This document shows, piece after piece, positions 1 to 12,446 of a stretch of 48,342 nt of DNA. The notes below the pieces were generated by a model. That model had not been told where the DNA came from. It ran no database searches and saw only the letters and a program-made list of their open reading frames with translations. A program made the position numbers and the translations under genes. How positions within the stretch are numbered: the stretch's first letter is position 1; each line of letters starts with the position of its first letter. The stretch is taken from positions 1-48,342 of the forward strand of contig DAIDDL010000016.1 in NCBI GenBank assembly GCA_027309085.1, in the 5' to 3' direction. Origin of the DNA: Sulfobacillus sp. (GTDB lineage Bacteria; Bacillota; Sulfobacillia; Sulfobacillales; Sulfobacillaceae).

Positions 1-610
1 TAGACTGCAATATCCATTCCTGAACGAAGGCAAAGCGGAAGAAACTCCGTAACGCCACGACCACATTATGGAATGAACCAGGCCGCAATGATGTCATCTG
101 CACCTGAAGAAATTGATGGACTTGTTCAGTACGAACGATCAGGGCCAATGAGGACTTCTTACCCTGAATTTCGATGTCAACGAGAAATTTTTTCACTACG
201 GCTTGATACCGGATAATGGTCGCATCCGCGAGCCCGCGTTGCTGGGATAAATACATGGTGAATGCCTGAACCACGTAATCCTGAAGGGTATAAGGGATGA
301 TCGGTTCCTCGGATGGAATGACACCAATTGCCCGCAGGTAAGCCACCAATACGCCAACCATTCCCTGAGTCGAGCGGCCCTTGGCATACCCCAGGCCTCG
401 CCGTTCGGCGACGAAATCCTCAATACGAGGTGACGTTAAATCACACAGACGCCACTCATGTTGCACTAACCAACGGCTCAAATGGGCCATCAACCCTTGA
501 TACGATGTAGCAGACCAATCGGCGAACCCTTGATCCTTTAAGGCCGCCATGAACCCTGCTGTGTAGTTTGCGAGTGGTCCATCAACATGTGTTCCTAGTA
601 ATTTACCCAT
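1..610 (-). CDS. Tyrosine recombinase/integrase, N-terminal part (runs off window)
   Basis: The minus strand is open from an ATG at 610 to the window edge, about 203 codons with no stop; the C-terminus lies outside. The start has a strong ribosome site (AAGGAGGG, about 10 nt upstream). The protein begins MGKLLGTHVDG and carries two helical core-binding-like segments. The second contains YTLQDYVVQAFTMYLSQQ followed by TIIRYQAVVKKFL, the usual pattern of the SAM-like N-terminal DNA-binding domain of phage integrase/XerC-type recombinases. The catalytic R-H-R-Y domain would be beyond position 1, so activity cannot be judged. Just upstream of the gene lies a cluster of palindromic motifs (639-786) that could be its binding sites; that link is inference. 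It could belong to a transposon-type or an integrative-element recombinase. Confidence 0.65.
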   Translation of the reverse strand, partial: MGKLLGTHVDGPLANYTAGFMAALKDQGFADWSATSYQGLMAHLSRWLVQHEWRLCDLTSPRIEDFVAERRGLGYAKGRSTQGMVGVLVAYLRAIGVIPSEEPIIPYTLQDYVVQAFTMYLSQQRGLADATIIRYQAVVKKFLVDIEIQGKKSSLALIVRTEQVHQFLQVQMTSLRPGSFHNVVVALRSFFRFAFVQEWILQS

Positions 611-638: not shown

Positions 639-786
639 AGATTGCGATCAACAAAGACCGCAATCTATAAAGTTATGCCGAAGGGTTTCGCTAAGTAATG
701 GCGCTATCCCTTCCTTGCGCCGGGAAACTCGGCATAACTGTGGACGCGGCATAAGAGGACTTATGCCGCATGCGGCATAAGTCCTC
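639..786. repeat. Cluster of inverted repeats with a 32-bp perfect palindrome
   Basis: Between the recombinase start and the 59-residue gene lie nested inverted repeats. An 8-bp stem pairs 639-646 with 659-666. A 10-bp stem pairs AGTTATGCCG at 671-680 with CGGCATAACT at 730-739. A direct copy GCGGCATAAG is at 746-755. A perfect 32-bp palindrome at 755-786 is centred on CCGCATGCGG. The core GGCATAA, or its complement, appears five times in about 115 bp. The arrangement fits recombinase binding/crossover sites or a folded transposon end; function is inferred from position only. Confidence 0.6.
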
Positions 787-927
787 ACTATAGGGATGGA
801 TGCGCATATGGAGGGTTTGGCCGTGCATTGCGGCGCCCAAGACAACATCCCGAACTTTCTCTGCAAGCAAGAGAGTTCGGGATGGGCAATTTTACGTGAT
901 TATGGGATAACCGCATGGGACACCGCT

Positions 928-1107
928 TTAAGCGGACGGCTGCATGGCAGCGTGGTCGCGGGCAGGATTGTCTAAACGGCTGACGTACGAGCACTCCGGG
1001 TAGTTATCGCAGATCGCGTACACATCGCCAGTAAGTTTTAACGTCTGGTAGCGAACCGGATAGCGGCGGCAGACTGGGCAAAGCACTTCACTTGATGTAT
1101 TCTTCAT
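928..1107 (-). CDS. Small zinc-finger-like protein, 59 aa
   Basis: A 59-codon reading frame starts at ATG 1107 and stops at TAA 928. It has an excellent ribosome site (AAGGAGG, 9 nt upstream), an extended -10 promoter and a palindromic operator, so it is very likely expressed. The protein has CPVCRRYP near residues 10-17 and CDNYPEC near residues 33-39. This C-x2-C...C-x5-C arrangement resembles the small C4 zinc ribbons at topoisomerase I C-termini or in small phage/plasmid proteins. I do not recognise a specific family. Its place next to the recombinase suggests it belongs to the same mobile element, perhaps as an accessory or regulatory protein; that is inference. Confidence 0.7.
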   Translation of the reverse strand: MKNTSSEVLCPVCRRYPVRYQTLKLTGDVYAICDNYPECSYVSRLDNPARDHAAMQPSA

Positions 1108-12400: not shown

Positions 12401-12446
12401 CGGCGGGGCAGAGACAATTGTCTCTGCCCCGCCGCCATTCTTTTTG
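12401..12446 (+). terminator. Strong hairpin terminator
   Basis: A perfect 34-bp palindrome at 12401-12434 (17-bp arms beginning CGGCGGGGCAGAGACAA) is followed by ATTCTTTTTG. It ends the ybaK unit and insulates the ammonium transporter. Confidence 0.88.

Follow-up and report, generated by a model that had tools for sequence, protein, structure and literature searches.

The palindromic GGCATAA array on a Sulfobacillus sp. contig is the RitA-side end of a recombinase-in-trio element and suggests a composite recombination site

We have identified a palindromic GGCATAA array in Sulfobacillus sp. DNA as the RitA-side end of a RIT (recombinase-in-trio) element that is cut by the contig edge. Comparison with related elements indicates that a RIT end is probably a composite site of two modules, the element proper (E) and a 20-bp palindrome (P20), which would form a circle with two inverted, equivalent attP cores. 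The analysed stretch of 48,342 nucleotides (the window) is C77:1-48342; its first base is also that of contig C77, where the recombinase ORF is cut.

Five copies of GGCATAA are found in the window, at 673-679 and 761-767 on the minus strand and at 731-737, 748-754 and 774-780 on the plus strand, and positions 755-786, GAGGACTTATGCCGCATGCGGCATAAGTCCTC, form a 32-bp palindrome without mismatch. The initial annotation had reported five copies and a perfect palindrome, and both are confirmed at these positions. None of 20,000 random placements elsewhere in the window sequence gave five copies within 148 bp, and only one other 32-bp palindrome with at most one mismatch is present in the 48 kb, a terminator-like hairpin at 12402. 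The array and the palindrome are not due to chance. The hairpin itself (12402-12433) is a GC-rich near-perfect palindrome followed by a T-rich run, and is probably a bidirectional terminator. As had been described, the array has the start of a tyrosine recombinase gene (ATG at about 610, minus strand) on one side and a 59-aa Zn-ribbon ORF (928-1107, minus strand) on the other. The palindrome at 755-786 is composite, consisting of P20 with one hexamer on each side; E stops at 754, and the palindrome is located outside E. Arms begin at 747, 730 and 673, which is the layout of the ends of relatives, and the outer end of the RIT structure in the window is 673-786. The features are as follows.

2-610, minus strand: N-terminal part of RitA, with the ATG at about 610 and the C-terminus beyond the contig edge (the longest RitA ORF in the window has a GTG start at 622)
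673-680, minus strand: subterminal inverted arm TTATGCCG, 74 bp inside the element end
728-754, plus strand: 27-bp terminal inverted repeat CTCGGCATAACTGTGGACGCGGCATAA, with the same 27 bp at 3568-3594 of contig C12
730-737, plus strand: second (direct) arm, 17 bp inward of the core arm
747-754, plus strand: core arm, within the terminal repeat
755-760, plus strand: inner hexamer GAGGAC, the E/P20 overlap (coupling sequence), a slot assigned by comparison with 79 relatives
761-780, no strand: P20, TTATGCCGCATGCGGCATAA, a 20-bp palindrome of two back-to-back putative recombinase half-sites, defined from relatives
781-786, plus strand: outer hexamer GTCCTC, the P20/host overlap (attR), assigned by comparison with the 79 relatives
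787-927, plus strand: HostR flank, host DNA on the P20 side, little conserved in congeners

The inner hexamer of the window, GAGGAC, is a perfect inverted match of the outer hexamer GTCCTC. An empty site for this insertion could be read in none of eight congeners, in which the longest-reaching match starts at about 927. Between P20 and the Zn-ribbon ORF there is a 15-bp inverted repeat with a 9-bp loop (846-884; CATCCCGAACTTTCT/AGAGAGTTCGGGATG). The ORF is of the topoisomerase type with a Pfam score under the cut-off, it lies upstream of a histone-deacetylase-family (AcuC-like) gene, and the DNA around it is similar in several congeners.

The RitA fragment of the window (207 aa) is 85% identical to RitA of a nearly complete RIT element (L063, genome G032), in which ritA, ritB and ritC follow in order and overlap, with RitC cut by a later insertion; further relatives also carry recombinase trios. 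A SAM-like core-binding domain was detected at residues 118-199 (PF02899, E=1.9e-8), preceded by an N-terminal extension of about 117 aa. A full-length relative RitA has 409 aa with the catalytic domain at 226-391, and Pfam Phage_integrase is present in RitA, RitB and RitC of relatives and in the RitC fragment on C12. RIT elements have been described as three adjacent, overlapping tyrosine recombinase genes of about 3.4-3.5 kb with a 28-29 bp inverted repeat at the ends and an overlapping palindromic sequence (Van Houdt 2012, PMC3414803), and RitA is known to have two core-binding domains and a long N-terminus (PMC8138268). The perfect 27-bp repeat and the palindrome at 755-786 correspond to this end structure, and E is 3.3-3.5 kb long in most relatives, with the window copy being truncated. 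The initial annotation knew no named site with this layout. On the one hand, the site does have a name, since it is a RIT end whose inverted repeat and palindrome were already published (PMC3414803). On the other hand, no account of its detailed layout and logic was found in the accessible papers, Ricker 2013 aside.

The window contains the RitA N-terminus alone. On contig C12, the RitC C-terminus adjoins the terminal repeat that is identical over 27 bp to window 728-754, and no copy of RitB of the window element was found in the assembly. The congeners do not allow C12 and C77 to be joined into a single insertion: in congener G003 the matches to the two flanks are about 2.2 Mb apart, so the C12 and window ends may be two copies. 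The far hexamer on C12 is CGTTTT, which would break the rule for overlap positions 5-6 described below if C12 and the window were one insertion. We rejected contig C10 as a candidate for the absent central part of the element, since the RitB-like protein it encodes shares only about 28% identity with RitB of the relative and the C10 trio leads into another transposon. This C10 locus (L038, 132-2712 of C10 in the same assembly, G000) represents a second trio of recombinase genes, related only distantly, with TniA/TniB-like genes after it. The assembly also holds a MITE-like, internally deleted RIT of about 390 bp (L006, C44 3882-4290), which still has P20 and both terminal repeats, together with the beginning of RitA and the end of RitC, and is inserted in a TniB-like ATPase gene; the reading frame of this gene, ELRFVL|NTAMDAV, is restored only by the joint removal of E, one hexamer and the 20-bp palindrome. 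In L063, a different tyrosine recombinase gene interrupts RitC at 1-1300, beside a short palindromic sequence, and this insert is possibly another trio-type element.

To describe the ends, a main set of 80 RitC loci from genome contigs was combined with viral copies (the eight best full-length of 27 loci on viral contigs) and plasmid copies, and about 95 loci were screened. Ends were called by the inverted repeat and by how palindromic the adjoining 20 bp were, and hexamers were not used in the calls. P20, with a consensus of about YTATGCCGANNTCGGCATAR, was present at 52 of the approximately 95 loci, evenly divided between the RitA side (26) and the RitC side (26). An independent Bacillota set, mostly with other arm letters (TTATGNAAAG), showed P20 and the same grammar in 27 of 40 loci (RitA side 15, RitC side 12), which were accepted by eye, with L237, a badly registered locus that would break the hexamer rule, excluded. 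Together, 79 relatives carry P20, 41 on the RitA side and 38 on the RitC side. The idea that P20 never occurs at both ends was rejected, with three exceptions (L086, L099 and L148), and P20 is absent from at least five complete-looking elements (L074, L077, L087, L110 and L129). 32-bp palindromes in the loci of relatives are found at the element ends and are almost absent elsewhere in those loci.

The arms stand at fixed spacings. Counted from the core arm, the direct arm is located at +17 in 101 of 104 relative ends, and the inverted arm, with at most one mismatch, gave 91 matches over the 104 ends compared with 2 in a shuffled control. The offsets of the inverted arm are mainly 73-75, 84-86 and 94-97 bp from the end, and these steps of about one helical turn suggest a looped nucleoprotein complex. 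The earlier proposal that the array represents recombinase arm and core sites is well supported by these spacings and by cores that read as arm, 6 bp, arm.

When the loci are drawn with P20 rightmost, every insertion takes the form HostL-far-E-inner-P20-outer-HostR. All junctions consist of a left arm (HostL or P20), 6 bp and a right arm (E or HostR), and this grammar holds for the far and outer hexamers and for the inner hexamer read as its reverse complement. In 45 loci, the three hexamers had on average about 5.0-5.2 matches out of 6, compared with 2.0 under permutation. Across 62 non-redundant loci, the far and outer hexamers agree at positions 1 to 6 in 49, 53, 52, 47, 62 and 61 loci, respectively. 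When only the 22 loci with differing far and outer hexamers are considered, the corresponding numbers are 9, 13, 12, 7, 22 and 21; accordingly, positions 5-6 agree in 43 of 44 comparisons, compared with 41 of 88 at positions 1-4 (Fisher p=4.5e-10, a value that is indicative as the loci share ancestry). Across lineages, 14 different dinucleotides occupy positions 5-6, indicating that the agreement exists within each insertion and does not reflect a single fixed sequence. One rhizobial locus, L179, has a far hexamer that violates the rule. The inner hexamer is the exact reverse complement of the outer one in 34 of the 62 non-redundant loci and differs in 28.

The comparison also shows that hexamers are shuffled among the three slots. 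Two copies in genome G265, with E 99.9% identical, carry the same hexamers in permuted order: far, inner and outer are TCCACC, ACCCCC and GCCGCC in L226, and GCCGCC, TCCACC and ACCCCC in L227. Similarly, CAAGGG occupies the far slot in L245 and the inner slot in L246, in which E is 100% identical, and L178 and L179 have a common inner hexamer, with TGCCGT as the far hexamer in one and the outer hexamer in the other. We had considered that the inner hexamer is copied from the target by hairpin copying, an idea that came from L066, L068 and the C44 copy. It was rejected on the basis of the 28 of 62 loci in which inner and outer hexamers differ and of the near-identical L178 and L179, which share the inner hexamer at different targets.

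An empty counterpart and the rejoined flanks show what is gained at insertion. The ISRle3 of R. indigoferae (L181) is the empty counterpart of the R. leguminosarum insertion L178, and reads CATTCATCTT-TGCCGT-TTGCAGGAGC, with a single hexamer and without P20. Joining the flanks of other insertions through a single hexamer, with P20 left out, gave intact reading frames for a transposase, IstB, a reverse transcriptase or a recombinase. Pfam domains were found in 19 of 20 rejoined flanks tested, most of them spanning the junction (E-values down to 4e-92, for IstB). The L133 query included ten extraneous residues close to its start that were not part of the match. The domains were IS110, IstB, DDE, rve, Mutator, IS66, RVT_1, AAA_22, Phage_integrase, C5 methylase and histidine kinase. 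Since the frames are restored without P20, P20 moves together with E, and the alignments demonstrate that it is gained along with E. The insertions frequently interrupt codons belonging to conserved catalytic motifs, such as the DDE Asp/Glu, IstB Walker A/B, RT YADD, recombinase LRHS and methylase PCQ motifs (targets including L066, L068, L083, L089, L115, L133, L216, L223, L236 and L250), and these target genes mostly belong to other mobile elements.

E can be found either way round in front of a fixed P20. Four copies have E 100% identical over 3,398 bp, with P20 on the RitC side in L178 and L184 and on the RitA side in L182 and L183; the HostL motif is unchanged among them, and P20 is always toward HostR. 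The pairs L220/L221 and L244/L245, with 100% identical E within single genomes, have P20 at opposite ends, and L216/L217 (E 99.0% identical) have opposite orientations with the same 20-bp host sequences alongside. From these alignments, E reverses while P20 stays beside HostR. P20 is missing from a RIT on an R. rhododendri plasmid (L192), whose two ends adjoin inverted copies of HostL (98% identical over 100 bp); this layout would be expected after recombination of an inner core with another target.

From these patterns we infer a circle, together with its enzymology, the order of strand exchange and a division of labour among RitA, RitB, RitC and their arms. Module E would comprise ritA-ritB-ritC flanked by inverted repeats of about 27 bp, and module P20 would provide two recombinase half-sites back to back. 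The inserted form would be HostL-6-E-6-P20-6-HostR, and recombination of HostL-6-E with P20-6-HostR would yield a circle joined as E-6'-P20-6-E. As a palindrome, P20 would give this junction two equivalent attP cores in opposite directions and would be their common half-site. In attP, the left arm would be P20 and the right arm the E end, and the arms of the target would come from host sequence. Integration could then proceed via either core, so that E would be placed either way round with P20 always next to HostR, and the target would be directional. Strand exchange would need identity at overlap positions 5-6, beside the right arm, and would tolerate mismatch at positions 1-4; coupling hexamers of earlier sites would therefore persist in the three slots, and those in the unused slot would be 6-bp traces of previous insertion sites. 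The three arm classes (E, P20 and host) may be the reason for three recombinases. A circle or tandem junction of the E-P20-E type was found in neither plasmids nor viral contigs, where the plasmid search rests on the E-hexamer-P20-hexamer-E part of the query.

Several other explanations bear on the same observations. E could invert in place if the far (HostL-6-E) and inner (P20-6-E) cores recombined, with P20 serving mainly as the inversion partner. The two cores are inverted repeats in a suitable orientation, L216/L217 show opposite E beside the same host sequences in one genome, and L245/L246 have one hexamer in the far or the inner slot of an identical E. However, inversion alone leaves the spread to new sites and the outer hexamers unexplained, and we regard it as a serious but clearly less probable account. 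It is compatible with the circle model, and both processes may occur. The agreement of hexamers could also have arisen by repair or gene conversion after insertion, or from a target hexamer fixed in each lineage, rather than from a need for homology at positions 5-6. Related copies do share hexamer families (rhizobial NNNNGT), and the three slots are frequently all identical, but repair would not single out positions 5-6 as the counts in the 22 differing loci and the 14 dinucleotides do, and we consider this explanation unlikely.

Slightly less likely still is a folded single-stranded copy, an idea already raised by the initial annotation, in which pairing of the E ends, the hexamers and P20 would produce one double-stranded core with a hairpin cap, like integron attC. 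The inverted repeats at the E ends match perfectly or nearly so, and the exact inner-outer complementarity in 34 of 62 loci would fit such a fold; the 28 loci with differing hexamers do not, and the far and outer hexamers agree to a similar degree although they would be unpaired in it. It is very improbable that the target already contained P20, or that P20 is a terminator, an operator or a REP-like repeat without connection to the element. Short perfect palindromes are common as terminators, but in 79 loci the distance between E and P20 is exactly 6 bp, and the P20 arms are similar to those of E in the respective lineage (TTATGCCG or TTATGNAAAG). A palindrome already present in the target was rejected on the basis of the empty site and of the coding frames that rejoin without P20. 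REP/BIME palindromes, which have many dispersed intergenic copies, were rejected as well: a search for further copies, as the initial annotation had proposed, found the 32-bp palindrome only once in the 4.5-Mb assembly, with two other matches at places of RIT ends.

The composite site with its circle, which we prefer, can be compared with known systems. The CTnDOT and Tn916 families have one integrase and an attP of one core and two arms, and these families are not known to have a palindromic double half-site or an internal third overlap slot. Xer/dif core sites have inverted arms around a 6-bp overlap, as RIT cores do. However, dif is a single core acting on its own copy, whereas in a RIT the E and P20 arms are common to three cores, which transfer DNA to new sites. 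Heterologous overlaps with minimal fixed homology are present in the RIT relatives, where positions 5-6 are conserved and positions 1-4 are free, and their E contains three recombinase genes only, in place of the single Int, Xis and conjugation genes of CTnDOT/Tn916. The agreement at positions 5-6 resembles the 2-nt homology that is reported for CTnDOT (cited in PMC5871717). RIT elements resemble CTnDOT (IntDOT) and Tn916/Tn1549 (PMC5871717) in the short overlap, the minimal homology and the non-homologous coupling sequence at junctions, and would also share a circular intermediate. With SE (PMC10214605), GInts and Tn554, they share more than one tyrosine recombinase and imperfect terminal inverted repeats, and a 6-bp footprint copied from the donor flank is a further likeness. 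SE are strand-biased circularizing integrative elements with intA-tfp-intB-srap and 13-19 bp repeats (PMC10214605). No P20 is described for SE, and the gene sets differ, with the RIT relatives carrying three recombinases only.

The 2012 account of RIT elements reported insertions in transposase genes, stated that the features of the ends cannot be matched to usual core and arm binding sites and that the mode of action of the three recombinases is not apparent, and gave no junction logic (PMC3414803); a 2023 survey listed target specificity, excision and movement as untested (PMC10214605). As far as the literature was accessible, and Ricker 2013 aside, the P20 module, the three hexamer slots, the rule at positions 5-6 and the reversal of E are new, and the site design is a new account of a published kind of element. 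We lean towards the view that a double attP built on P20, with three hexamers recording old sites, is unlike any known system.

RIT elements are widespread. The arm-6-arm grammar yields exact attP, attB, attL and attR sites, which makes the mechanism testable with short synthetic sites, and it predicts that P20 and positions 5-6 are required and that E reverses with P20 fixed. RIT sites could provide a new class of DNA-integration tool. Junctions in codons of conserved catalytic motifs would explain how the elements find sites in distant hosts. If the proposed mechanism is true, one circle integrates both ways round while a directional target is retained.
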